DNA of 64,000 nt from Phycisphaerales bacterium (GTDB lineage Bacteria > Planctomycetota > Phycisphaerae > Phycisphaerales > UBA1924): NCBI GenBank assembly GCA_028289195.1, contig JANQQR010000002.1, positions 62,001 through 126,000 on the forward strand, in the 5' to 3' direction. Below, piece by piece: positions 3,358 through 8,217 of this stretch. How positions within the stretch are numbered: the stretch's first letter is position 1; each line of letters starts with the position of its first letter. Below the pieces are notes generated by a model, which saw only the letters and a program-made list of their open reading frames with translations, made no database searches and had not been told where the DNA came from. The position numbers were made by a program, and so were the translations under genes.

Positions 3358-3431
3358 CGGGGCGTAGCGCAGTTTGGTAGCGCGTTTGACTGGGGGTCAA
3401 AAGGTCGCAGGTTCAAATCCTGTCGCCCCGA
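3358..3431 (+). tRNA. tRNA-Pro (anticodon GGG)
   Basis: A 74-base cloverleaf can be drawn by hand. The 7-bp acceptor CGGGGCG/CGCCCCG has the C1-G72 pair and A73 typical of bacterial tRNA-Pro. The D stem is GCGC/GCGC. The anticodon stem TTTGA/TCAAA encloses loop CTGGGGG, giving anticodon GGG for codons CCC and CCU. The T arm has loop TTCAAAT. No CCA is encoded. It lies alone between the rpsB promoter region and an exported-protein gene. Confidence 0.96.
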
Positions 3432-3729: not shown

Positions 3730-4410
3730 ATGTCGAAAAAGGCGAGTTACGGAGCGCTCGGAGCAGCGGCTCTGCTCGTGGGAGGCGCCAGCGTGCTGGC
3801 GATGACCAACGTCGATTCCACGAACAAGTTCGCATGGGGCGAGAACATCGGGTTCCTCAACTGGGCGGACGCCAACGGCGGCGCCGACGGTGTCCAGGTG
3901 CTCGGCGATCACCTCACCGGGTTCATCTGGGGGGAGAATGTCGGCTGGATCAACACCGGCAACGGAGGCGGCCCCTACGCCAACACGGACAACACCGACT
4001 TCGGCGTGAACATCCTCGGGACCGGCTTCTGCGAAGGCTTCGCCTGGGGTGAGAACATCGGCTGGATCAACTTCGGCACCGAGCCGTTCGTCGGCGGGAT
4101 GGGCGGCGCGCGGTTCGACTCGATCGCCGGCCGCTTCCGTGGGTATGCCTGGGGCGAGAACGTGGGCTGGATCAACCTCGATGACGCCAATGTGTTCGTC
4201 GGCGTGAACGCGCCCGCCTGTTGTCCGGGGAACGCGGCCAAGGAGTCGCCCGGCCAGGTGAACTTCGCCGACATCACCTCTGTCTTGATGTTCTGGCTCA
4301 CCGACTACGGCGCCGGGAACACCGGCCCGGGAGATTCAAACTGCGACGGTGTCGTGAACTTCGGCGATATCACTTCGACGCTGATGTTCTGGCTCGACTC
4401 CTGCCCGTAA
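3730..4410 (+). CDS. Exported WGEN-repeat protein with C-terminal GC-type dockerin-like domain
   Basis: A 226-residue secreted protein. Residues 1-25 are a signal peptide (MSKK, then a hydrophobic Gly/Ala/Leu stretch). The middle contains four copies of a short motif, W-G-E-N-[IV]-G-[FW]-[IL]-N, spaced about 32-38 residues apart. The C-terminus has two half-repeats, VNFADITSVLMFWL and VNFGDITSTLMFWL, the second preceded by DSNCDGV, an EF-hand-like calcium loop, and closed by a final Cys-Pro. This pair resembles the dockerin-type terminal domain widespread in Phycisphaerales exported proteins, thought to anchor or sort them. The first half-repeat lacks a good D-x-N-x-D-G loop. ATG at 3730 follows a GAGAGGGG stretch. 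Function of the WGEN repeats is unknown. Confidence 0.85.
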   Translation: MSKKASYGALGAAALLVGGASVLAMTNVDSTNKFAWGENIGFLNWADANGGADGVQVLGDHLTGFIWGENVGWINTGNGGGPYANTDNTDFGVNILGTGFCEGFAWGENIGWINFGTEPFVGGMGGARFDSIAGRFRGYAWGENVGWINLDDANVFVGVNAPACCPGNAAKESPGQVNFADITSVLMFWLTDYGAGNTGPGDSNCDGVVNFGDITSTLMFWLDSCP

Positions 4411-4442
4411 TCTGAGGGCCGGTATCTGCCCAGTGAAAACGA

Positions 4443-4484
4443 AAGCAGCGGCGGTTGCGAGAACCGCCGCTGCTTCTTCTTTTT
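4443..4484 (+). terminator. Bidirectional intrinsic terminator between the WGEN protein and trxA
   Basis: A 14-bp GC-rich stem (AAGCAGCGGCGGTT with its complement) closes a 5-base loop and is followed by TTCTTTTTT on the plus strand. On the minus strand the same stem is followed by TTTCGTTTTC. It therefore can end transcription of both the converging WGEN/dockerin gene and trxA. Confidence 0.92.
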
Positions 4485-5013: not shown

Positions 5014-8000
5014 TCAGGCGGGATCCCCGCCCGCCGGGGCGAACCCGACGCGGACTTCGAAATCCTCGAAGCTGATCGTCTCGTCCAGGCCCGCACCGAA
5101 GGAGACGGTGCGGCCGTCGATCCCGATCTCGGTGAATCCGATCTCGTCGGCGCTCACCCCGAACGCGTCGCCGCCGTTGAAACGATCGGGATTGTTGACG
5201 CGCACGTTCTCGACGGTCGTCGCGGCGACGAATGAGCGCACCATGCCGAACTCGACGTCTCGTCCGGTCAGGAACAGGTTGAACAGGGTGGCCGCTCCGG
5301 TGCGGAGGCTCCCGTCGCTGGGGAAATCCTCGGTCGACGCGTCGAACGCCACCAGAACCCGAGAATCCACGAGCTGCGCTGCGCGGAGCACTCCCATGTT
5401 TCCGGCGGACGCTATCGTCGAATCCATGATCGAGCCGTCGACTCGGAGGATCCTGAACGGCGCGCCCGATGGACCCGCGGTCTGCTGGAACGACTCGATC
5501 GTGGAGTCTTCGACGTTGCCTTCGATGTCGATCAGGTCCGCGAACAGGAAGTCGATTCGCGAGTCGATGACACTGCCGCCGTTTCTCAGCGACAGCGTGC
5601 CGATCTCGTTGATGGTCCAGGTCCCGATGAGGTCGCCGCCGAGATCGTCCGTGCCGTTGAGTCGGGCGCGGTCCATGCTGAACACGCGGAGGTTCCCGTC
5701 CTCCCAGCGGTCCGCCTTGAAGTTGCGGATCGATCCCGAGGCCATCTGGATATCGGTGTCGATGAACTCGCCACCGGCCGACCAATTGCGGACGCCCAGG
5801 CCGGAGTGCGCGAACGAGTTGTCGCGCACGTCGCCCTTGACCTTGATGCTCCGCACCTCGCCATCCAGCGAGACGTCGGACTCGACCCAGTCGCCGTTGA
5901 CCTTGATCGAACGGACCGATTCGTCGTTCTGGCCCGTAACGGTGAGGTCGGCCTCGAAGTCGCCTGATGCGTTCTTGCCGCTGATGTTGATGGAGCCGAT
6001 CCGCTCTGCCGAGAGCGAGCCGCCCTCGAACGCTCCGGCCTTGACCGATCGCACGAACCCCCCGAAGGAGAGGTCGGCGCCCTCGATCGCTTGCGCCTTG
6101 ATGTTGACCGCCGTCCCGTCGGCCTGGAGTTCGAACCGCTTGATCTCGCCGCGGACTTTGAGCGAGCCGACATCGCCGGGCGCGATCCACTCGGCGCCGA
6201 TCAGAGACCCTCTGATGTTCACGTTGCCCACCACGAGCGCGCCCTCGAGCAGTCCTTCGCCGGTGAGGAACAGGTCGGGCTCGAAATCCCCATCGGATCG
6301 CGCGTCCGCGCCGCCGCTGATGGTGATCGAACCGATGGAGTCGGCGCGGATGGCCTGGCGGAAACCAAAGGTCTCCGTCCATTCCGACGCGCGGATGCTG
6401 ATGATCCGGCCTTCGGTCGTCACGGAGGTCTCGCTCACCGAGCCCATCTGGAACGACACCGACCGTTCGGTCACGAATCTGAAGTCGACGTCGTCGGTCT
6501 CGCCGTCGACCCGCGTGGAGAAAATCCCGTCGACGACGACGTCTCCCACGAGGTCGCCGCGGATCCTCAAGCTGTCGGTCTCACCCACCGGCGTGAAGAA
6601 CGCCACGAGGTCGTCGAGATCGCCGTCGCCGTCGATGTCCTCGGGGAGGATCTGGTTGGGAAGCAGGAACCCGTTGAGGTCGTAGCCGGTGATGCTCGAT
6701 CGGAGGTCGAGTGAACCAACGCTGGCATCGGTGACGACGAACCCGAGATCACCGGCATCGCGCTGGTCCACGATCGAGCCGATGCGGCGCGCGTTGCTCA
6801 CGTGGAGGCCGATCCTCGCGTCGGGGAAGTCGCTCGAGATCTGGATCGAGTTGACCGCCCCGTTGGAACCGAAGTTCACGCGCACCGCATCGCGGCCGCC
6901 CAGAATCCCGGCGTTGTCAAGGTCGAAGAGGCGCACGACCGCGTCGCTTCTGTCGTCTTCAAAGACGAGCGAGCCCGTCGGATCGAGCTGCTCGGCGGCT
7001 TCGTCGGACACCTCGACCAGGAGCGAGATCCGCGAGATCAGGACCAGGTCGGACGGCAGCACCTCTCCGCCCCGGGCGTTCACCGCGTCGAGATCGATGA
7101 CCGGGAGATCGGAGAACGCCGGATTCGTCGCCGAAGCGTTGGTCCGCTGGAACGCCGCGAGAGCGTCCATGACGTCGAGCCCCGCTTGGTCGGTGATCTC
7201 GCCGAACGCGGTGAACCCGCCGTTCTGGTTGTCGAGGTTCGCGCTGTTGTCGCCGAGGTTGAAGAACCACTGGTTGGTCGCGCTGTTGGGGTTTCCCGCC
7301 ATCTTGGCCATCGCGATCGTCCCGCGGACGTTCGAACGCACGGGCTCGTTCATCACGGGGGGGTCTGTCGGGATCGGGGGGAAACCCGGTTCGCCGCTGA
7401 AGCCTCCGCCCTGGATCACGAACGTCGCCGGGTCGAGCGCATCACCCCCGACCGAACGCTGGATGAACGTCCCGTCCCAATCGGCGCGGTTGGCGTAGTT
7501 CAGGAAGTTGGCGATCGTCTGCGGTGTCTGGGTCGAGAAGAGCCTGACGTCGATGATGCCCGAGACGGTGTGGAATCGGACGATCTGCGCTTCAGCCTGG
7601 CGGGTGAAGATCTCGAAATCGCCGCCCTCGACACCATCGCCCGACGGCGCGCCCGCCCCGTTGAACTCGCCATCAAGAAAGCACCCGTTCGCGCCCCGGA
7701 TGACGGACGAATCCAGAAACACGCGGTACCGCTCATCGGCCGCGACGTCCGCTTCGATGGTGATCGTCCGCTCGACACCGTTGTACGTCACGTCGCGGTC
7801 GACGAGGACATCGTCGGCCGTTCCCAGAATCAGGTCGTCGCCCGCGGTGGTCACCCGCACGGATTGCTGATTGACCGTGTTGGAGATCAAGTCGCGGCTG
7901 ACCGTCAGCACCACGAGGCCGCGGTTGTCGGCTTCCACGAGATCGATCGTGGGAGCATCGGCGCTCAGCAGCAATCGCTTCTCGAGCTGCTCGAAAACGG

Positions 8001-8040
8001 GGGATATCCCCTGCCGGCGGAACTTCTCTCGGGCTCTCAT
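5014..8040 (-). CDS. LEPR-XLL surface protein with Ig-like, cyclophilin and beta-solenoid regions
   Basis: A 1008-residue predicted surface protein. Residues about 14-25 (FEQLEKRLLLSA) are the LEPR-XLL export-associated motif of planctomycetes. An Ig-like (Big_5-type) region covers about 30-140. A cyclophilin-type peptidyl-prolyl isomerase domain covers about 147-300, with FVIQGGGF, NEPVRSNVRGTIAMAKM and QWFFNLGDN; the catalytic Arg (FIQRS) and Gln (VIQGG) are present, while the His after LDN is not obvious. From about 370 to 950, short repeats of the V-x-S-[IL]-x-[IV]-x-G type suggest a right-handed beta-solenoid. There is no PEP-CTERM or dockerin end. ATG at 8040 has AAGGAGTC upstream. Confidence 0.85.
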   Translation of the reverse strand: MRAREKFRRQGISPVFEQLEKRLLLSADAPTIDLVEADNRGLVVLTVSRDLISNTVNQQSVRVTTAGDDLILGTADDVLVDRDVTYNGVERTITIEADVAADERYRVFLDSSVIRGANGCFLDGEFNGAGAPSGDGVEGGDFEIFTRQAEAQIVRFHTVSGIIDVRLFSTQTPQTIANFLNYANRADWDGTFIQRSVGGDALDPATFVIQGGGFSGEPGFPPIPTDPPVMNEPVRSNVRGTIAMAKMAGNPNSATNQWFFNLGDNSANLDNQNGGFTAFGEITDQAGLDVMDALAAFQRTNASATNPAFSDLPVIDLDAVNARGGEVLPSDLVLISRISLLVEVSDEAAEQLDPTGSLVFEDDRSDAVVRLFDLDNAGILGGRDAVRVNFGSNGAVNSIQISSDFPDARIGLHVSNARRIGSIVDQRDAGDLGFVVTDASVGSLDLRSSITGYDLNGFLLPNQILPEDIDGDGDLDDLVAFFTPVGETDSLRIRGDLVGDVVVDGIFSTRVDGETDDVDFRFVTERSVSFQMGSVSETSVTTEGRIISIRASEWTETFGFRQAIRADSIGSITISGGADARSDGDFEPDLFLTGEGLLEGALVVGNVNIRGSLIGAEWIAPGDVGSLKVRGEIKRFELQADGTAVNIKAQAIEGADLSFGGFVRSVKAGAFEGGSLSAERIGSINISGKNASGDFEADLTVTGQNDESVRSIKVNGDWVESDVSLDGEVRSIKVKGDVRDNSFAHSGLGVRNWSAGGEFIDTDIQMASGSIRNFKADRWEDGNLRVFSMDRARLNGTDDLGGDLIGTWTINEIGTLSLRNGGSVIDSRIDFLFADLIDIEGNVEDSTIESFQQTAGPSGAPFRILRVDGSIMDSTIASAGNMGVLRAAQLVDSRVLVAFDASTEDFPSDGSLRTGAATLFNLFLTGRDVEFGMVRSFVAATTVENVRVNNPDRFNGGDAFGVSADEIGFTEIGIDGRTVSFGAGLDETISFEDFEVRVGFAPAGGDPA

Positions 8041-8217
8041 CTCGACTCCTTGAGAATCACGCGGCCGTCCGGCAGATCCATGGACCCTTCGATTCCGGAC
8101 GGTACAAACAGAAGCAGGCGTGTGCGAGCCCTCCCCTGTCACCGCCGACGATTCACTCGATGGCGCAGCGCCTCCGGTGCGCTGCTCGGGGCAGTGCCCC
8201 GGCCCGCTTCCAGCGGG

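Follow-up and report, generated by a model that had tools for sequence, protein, structure and literature searches.

The gene studied here encodes a protein with a signal-peptide-like N-terminus, a domain built around four W-G-E-N motifs (the WGEN domain) and a duplicated C-terminal tag (Table 1). It lies in the stretch of 64,000 nucleotides that we analysed (the window), part of a genome of 3.63 Mb in 28 contigs, referred to below as its own genome. The protein is taken to be exported from the signal-like look of its N-terminus, judged by eye. Upstream of the gene are tRNA-Pro (3358-3431) and then, on the opposite strand, the gene for ribosomal protein S2. Downstream there is a convergent thioredoxin gene, located behind a terminator-like hairpin (the hairpin scan found 2 against 0.9 expected). 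The sequence-only reading, an earlier note on this DNA, had placed the end of the feature at 4484, which is 74 nt too far as the gene stops at 4410; these 74 nt contain the hairpin at 4443-4475. The same reading called the protein the product of a single gene. This is correct for the window, given the tRNA-Pro upstream and the convergent thioredoxin gene downstream, but not for most relatives, in which a gene for a beta-helix protein adjoins. A search of its own genome detected a paralogue of the window gene on contig C18 (64% identity). Elsewhere in the window (5014-8142, minus strand) a long protein carries a cyclophilin-type isomerase domain behind an N-terminal FEQLEKRLLLSAD stretch, which we take to recall the planctomycete LEPR-XLL motif.

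Table 1. Positions in the window of the WGEN gene, its parts and the hairpin that follows it
Feature	Positions	Strand	Basis or detail
Whole gene	3730..4410	+	ATG 3730, stop 4408-4410, 226 aa plus stop
Signal-peptide-like N-terminus, residues 1-24	3730..3801	+	Read by eye
WGEN domain, residues 25-160, four strand pairs, predicted small beta-barrel	3802..4209	+	Alignments; AlphaFold2 model
Motif 1, WGENIGFLN	3835..3861	+	Strict motif search
Motif 2, WGENVGWIN	3928..3954	+	Strict motif search
Motif 3, WGENIGWIN	4045..4071	+	Strict motif search
Motif 4, WGENVGWIN	4150..4176	+	Strict motif search
Tag half 1, residues 164-190, degenerate loop, CCxGN subclass	4219..4299	+	Pattern comparison of tags
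Tag half 2, residues 201-226, D-S-N-C-D-G loop	4330..4407	+	Pattern comparison; structural superposition
Terminator-like hairpin between the WGEN gene and the convergent thioredoxin gene	4443-4475	.	Consensus scan only

A strict search for WGEN[IV]G[FW][IL]N places the motif at residues 36, 67, 106 and 141 of the window protein. The four copies described earlier are therefore real, although their start-to-start distances are 31, 39 and 35 residues and not 32-38 as had been given. At least four loose W..N.G matches occur in 4 of 200,000 shuffles of the window protein, and residues of the motifs are invariant in an alignment of 73 sequences, the window protein and 72 relatives, whose mean column identity is 32% (invariant are W36, G41, W67, E69, G72, W106, G111, W112, W141, G146, and W147). 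For these two reasons we do not attribute the four-fold motif to chance.

The repeat had been said to match no nameable domain, and this held in searches of Pfam, NCBIfam and the PDB sequences. The window protein has no row in Pfam at E ≤ 10 and a single, meaningless row in NCBIfam, and a 44-row profile of the WGEN domain has a sole match among the PDB sequences, at E 0.72. When 17 homologues of the WGEN protein are compared with Pfam, no family matches more than 3 of the 17; the only common NCBIfam match among them is the GC-type dockerin (12 of 17 at E ≤ 1).

AlphaFold2 models the whole protein with a pLDDT of 87.7 and the WGEN domain alone with a pLDDT of 95.1 and a pTM of 0.88. The repeated unit that the sequence-only reading would have sought in a predicted structure is present, each motif forming the turn of a strand pair. 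Each repeat contributes about two main strands, and the domain has 11 in total when all strands of at least three residues are counted. Judging from the model, the repeats probably make one domain of paired strands, a small beta-barrel; the barrel would be closed, with the WGEN turns on a common rim. Foldseek returns no match at E ≤ 0.001 for either the whole protein or the WGEN domain alone. The best superpositions reach Z 6.6, to 7re4_C (whole model), and Z 6.5, to 1jmx_A (domain alone); 1jmx_A is itself a larger enzyme subunit, and below these top superpositions are mostly small barrels. Small beta-barrels such as Cap15, HpuA, the hemophilin barrels, avidins and fatty-acid binding proteins superpose weakly over most of the WGEN domain (Z 2-6.6), but have no sequence relation to it, and the four-fold WGEN repeat is not seen in them. 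Similarly, the lipocalin/FABP, avidin and TbpB-like folds give Z 2-6.6 and no significant Foldseek match.

A four-bladed beta-propeller or a repeat lattice, as proposed from the sequence at the outset, would suit four repeats of about 35 residues, and two fucose-binding lectins, 4agi_A and 6z6c_AAA, top the Foldseek list (E 1.2 and 1.5). Propeller blades are four-stranded, whereas the model, at pLDDT 95, has about two main strands per repeat, on which ground we rejected such blades. The better superpositions are also mostly barrels, though the top row for the domain is the enzyme subunit 1jmx_A. We regard a propeller as very improbable.

The WGEN domain is detected in 14 of 41 relatives, own genome included (E ≤ 1e-3; the match in G001 is weak), and in 17 genomes of a sample of 392 from the phylum (E ≤ 1e-6). 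A scan of GTDB gave at least 586 stretches, at least 537 of them confirmed, and the loci analysed here are the best 80. Among these best 80, 75 have titles beginning with Phycisphaer- or Planctomycet-, the exceptions being L063, L068, L101, L102 and L105. Two of the exceptions (L101 and L102) are titled cyanobacteria but have WGEN genes, tails and helix neighbours of planctomycete appearance; their tails suggest that they are probably mis-binned or mislabelled.

We clustered the ORFs of at least 120 residues from the best 80 loci by blastp and recognised a same-strand family beside the WGEN genes, the secreted right-handed beta-helix proteins. Five helix queries recover 90 ORFs in 55 of these 80 loci. 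Of the 80 loci, 51 have a same-strand helix ORF whose end is no more than 300 nt upstream of the WGEN domain (51 of 77 when only loci with at least 1 kb of upstream sequence are considered). In four of the 80 (L054, L065, L100, and L115) one starts within 300 nt downstream, and an antisense helix ORF beside the WGEN gene is found in none of the best 80. A narrower count, restricted to the best-scoring helix and leaving out three loci in which this best-scoring one is downstream, gives 38 of 52. Candidate start codons of the WGEN gene are often about 8-50 nt past the helix stop, and the match coordinates place the helix before WGEN in G010, G012, G017, G020 and G302 as well.

Three of four scanned helix-neighbour proteins match Beta_helix (PF13229) or NosD (PF05048), and three of four match TIGR03804; the helix protein of L096 has no Pfam match. 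The family differs from the known beta-helix families in having its own C-terminal end, AN[FYILV] followed by at most five residues, detected in 71 of the 90 ORFs. In none of the 90 do the last 90 residues contain a canonical calcium loop, in contrast to the WGEN tails, of which 61 out of 73 have at least one.

The two genes also co-occur across genomes. Among the 41 relatives, 11 have both, 3 have WGEN only (G001, with its weak WGEN match, G019 and G026), none has the helix only and 27 have neither (Fisher 1.2e-7), and the corresponding counts within the same family are 11, 2, 0 and 12 (Fisher 2.0e-5); both p-values are optimistic because the genomes are related and the search cut-offs differ (1e-3 and 1e-6). 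The own genome of the window has 126 helix matches (68 in a second count, for which fewer candidates were scored), compared with 0-17 in 15 relatives. It has only two WGEN genes and neither adjoins a helix gene: tblastn with the five helix queries, which as a positive control detects the arrays L276-L279, gives no match across the 64-kb window and the 10.5 kb surrounding the paralogue. Many of the helix matches are in tandem arrays; L276-L279 are such arrays of secreted beta-helix genes, on contigs C14, C23, C6 and C11, and 30 ORFs in the four stretches carry the end motifs of the helix family.

The solitary position of the window gene suits a reading of the WGEN domain as a module for ligand binding. 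The barrel would bind a glycan or another ligand with its Trp/Glu/Asn rim, the tag would only hold the protein at the cell, and the beta-helix neighbour would work on or adhere to the same material without touching the barrel. Trp, Glu and Asn are conserved in all four units, as this would predict, and OAA-type lectins and MBHA superpose on the WGEN domain, although only at Z 2.5-3.0, which is noise level. The helix is never found without WGEN in the 41 relatives, a pattern that a direct partnership fits at least equally well. Binding of a ligand by the rim is a possibility to be taken seriously, although we find it doubtful.

The C-terminal tag had been described as two dockerin-like halves with a calcium loop only in the second, and comparison of the halves confirms this. 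The halves are similar, with CCPGN at residue 164 and GDSNCDG at residue 201. Loop 2 reads D202-S-N204-C-D206-G ... D213, and loop 1 (N168-A-A-K-E-S-P-G) is longer and without the acidic positions of such a loop. The window protein has one canonical loop, whereas two F-hand loops are the trait of type I dockerins. Dockerin type I (PF00404) gives no row for the window protein at E ≤ 10 and none for the tag at E ≤ 0.1. The GC-type dockerin (NF041540) matches the tag at 14.4 bits (E 0.039), below its cut-off of 29 bits. We file the window tag as dockerin-like only, because it misses both the GC-type dockerin and the Pfam cut-offs. Both the window tag and NF041540, which often ends in GC or CP, are C-terminal and duplicated, but the first loop of the window tag is degenerate and the tags differ strongly between genera. 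Among dockerins, the predicted structure of the tag superposes best on 2y3n_B, of type II (Z 6.1, rmsd 3.1, 58 aligned), others giving lower Z; with Z under 8, the dockerin-like fold of this model is only suggestive. A PDB search with the tag profile lists calmodulins first, a general EF-hand signal.

One locus carries a different tail. In L045 (3875-4444) an IPTL-CTERM tail replaces the dockerin-like tag on the WGEN domain and the helix gene stays upstream; this tail, not that of the window protein, passes the curated cut-off of IPTL-CTERM (TIGR04174, 20.7 bits against 20.5). The WGEN protein of L105 has neither tail type and keeps its helix neighbour. As the tail can be exchanged for a sorting signal, it is most simply an attachment device. 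The exchange in L045 would also be expected if the WGEN protein aided the folding or envelope crossing of its helix neighbour, with the tag being a processed sorting signal and not a docking module, and the tight gene order with the helix gene first is in line with such a helper. Against it, both the sequence and the predicted fold of the tag are similar to those of calcium-loop dockerins, no membrane segment is seen in the tag by eye, and the own genome combines its many helix matches with only two WGEN genes that are not adjacent to any. We consider a helper function unlikely.

The tag is widespread in its own genome. The C-terminal part of the window protein matches 79 places (E ≤ 10), 76 of which end within five residues of a stop; of the three left out, one ends 13 residues before the stop and two have a frame that is open in the stretch examined. 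Among the 76 tags, a simple pattern is found in both halves of 50, in only the second half of 15 and in neither half of 1, and the other 10 have the CCxGN form of the window tag. Members of this CCxGN subclass also have a cysteine within loop 2 and a last cysteine; disulphides in them are a guess. Because the asymmetry of the window tag is common to the subclass, it represents a conserved form. At E ≤ 0.1, the GC-type dockerin is matched by 64 and Pfam Dockerin_1 (PF00404) by 53 of the 76 tags.

Between genera the tags differ. Three of them (from the window, G012 and G020) were searched in the same 16 genomes (E ≤ 1e-4), with counts that refer to places, some of which are single halves of one tail. 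The window tag is found 70 times in G000, 69 in G007, 38 in G011, 26 in G302, 4 in G349 and 2 in G019, and is absent from 10 genomes. The G012 tag has 169 places in G012, 93 in G010 and none in 14 genomes, and the G020 tag has at least 150 in G020, one weak match in G021 and none in 14. Six of the 16 genomes thus have the window tag, two the G012 tag and two, one of them weakly, the G020 tag. To call the window tag private would be too strong, since it is also common in three other genera.

The halves of one tail resemble each other. In 68 of the 73 WGEN tails (L045, L063, L076, L080 and L105 were dropped for their length or different end) the median score between halves is 87 within a tail versus 32 across tails; the tail's own second half is the best match in 35 of the 68, and at most three others score better in 52. 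Close relatives have tags in common, and in several tails the halves are unlike. The likeness of tags within a genome could also stem from gene conversion or recent copying, without a functional receptor. At four-fold sites of conserved residues, codon identity is 0.38-0.61 in G000 (background 0.37-0.41), 0.39-0.59 in G012 (background 0.30-0.32) and 0.49-0.62 in G020 (background 0.45-0.53). It is somewhat over background in G000 and clearly over it at several positions in G012, as copying would have it, but is close to background in G020 and everywhere far from 1. Copying would give values near 1, and selection on the tag protein is therefore the better explanation; given the excess in G012, the tags may still have been homogenised to some degree. 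As the whole cause of the likeness, copying seems quite unlikely to us.

Cohesin partners, to which the sequence-only reading had pointed, are not found in the own genome with the PF00963 profile at E ≤ 1. Four of 16 genomes have a match to the profile at E ≤ 1, and the cut-off is passed in one (G010). We set aside a conserved cohesin as the receptor of the tag, since the profile detects none in the own genome and passes its cut-off in 1 of 16; a divergent cohesin may still serve. Divergent cohesins can escape the PF00963 model, according to the portion of PMC11557425 used here. The tags have two F-hand-like loop-helix halves, as do type I dockerins (PF00404) and the cellulosomal pairs, but the cellulosomal pairs have a cohesin and none is detected in the own genome for the tags. 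Dockerins are described, in the part of PMC12484212 consulted, as having species-specific recognition and symmetric halves that permit two binding orientations. The tag fits this dockerin logic because it has like halves, is present on scores of exported proteins and differs by genus. In G010, one protein (L267, 757-3258) has an HYR domain and a dockerin-like end besides its cohesin match; the scanned piece of it matches cohesin at 20.7 bits, below the cut-off of 24.1. The G010 cohesin region has a relative in one further genome of the 41, G030. The L267 protein resembles the adaptor of the planctosome, proposed for non-cellulosomal dockerins in Phycisphaerae in the section of PMC6461901 available to us. 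As described there, that proposal concerns peptidases with cohesins, whereas the WGEN domain and the beta-helix partner are the features here.

Our favoured reading, held tentatively and at somewhat less than even chances, is that the WGEN protein is an exported adaptor at the cell surface, with a barrel for binding beta-helix proteins and a dockerin-like tag matched to a lineage-specific receptor. The WGEN domain would be a small beta-barrel of four strand pairs; with a simple up-and-down topology, the four W-G-E-N-x-G turns would all be on one rim, which would form the binding face. The likeliest partner would be the secreted right-handed beta-helix family encoded beside WGEN in most relatives, and the conserved gene pair suggests that the WGEN domain is the part holding the helix protein. 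The double F-hand dockerin-like tag would fasten the WGEN protein to a surface receptor, the same one as would be used by dozens of further exported proteins encoded in the genome, and the untagged beta-helix proteins would get their attachment from the WGEN protein. Tags would be alike within a genome and different between genera because all copies must fit one lineage-specific receptor.

We favour the adaptor because of the gene pair, the co-occurrence, the contrast between the tails of the two proteins, the genome-wide tag, its divergence between genera and the tail swap in L045. The species-specific recognition and symmetric halves described for dockerins, in the part of PMC12484212 cited above, also argue for it. 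Several observations count against it: the WGEN genes of the own genome have no adjoining helix gene, three genomes with WGEN have no helix match, and no cohesin is detected in the own genome, with the PF00963 cut-off passed in 1 of 16. The window tag falls below the GC-type dockerin cut-off and has no Pfam match, and some tails have unlike halves, with the window tag being common in three other genera.

A broader version, which we find rather doubtful, is that this planctomycete family has a lineage-coded surface assembly. Genus-specific double F-hand tags, which selection would keep alike on scores of exported proteins, would act as addresses read by a matching receptor, the WGEN barrel would plug in untagged beta-helix proteins, and tag and receptor would co-diverge like a password. 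If so, parts taken from one genus would fail to assemble on another, and the WGEN barrel would plug whole beta-helix arrays into the surface of the cells of the own genome.

Among the titles listed by searches of open-licence PMC papers, none concerns the WGEN domain, the gene pair or genus-specific tags. Neither the WGEN domain nor its pairing with beta-helix genes is described in the databases and literature searched; the tag itself is a variant of an already known type. If the adaptor reading is correct, an undescribed adaptor domain would be named and linked to a family of beta-helix exoproteins that is large and uncharacterised, and the planctomycete dockerins without cohesins would become a testable question, namely what reads a genus-variable tag on scores of proteins. 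Tags that differ by genus could supply orthogonal docking pairs for protein assembly. Finally, about seven proteins of the own genome end, by eye, in a single tag half (L214, L215, L219, L220, L221, L223, and L225), so that whatever reads the tag may need only one half.
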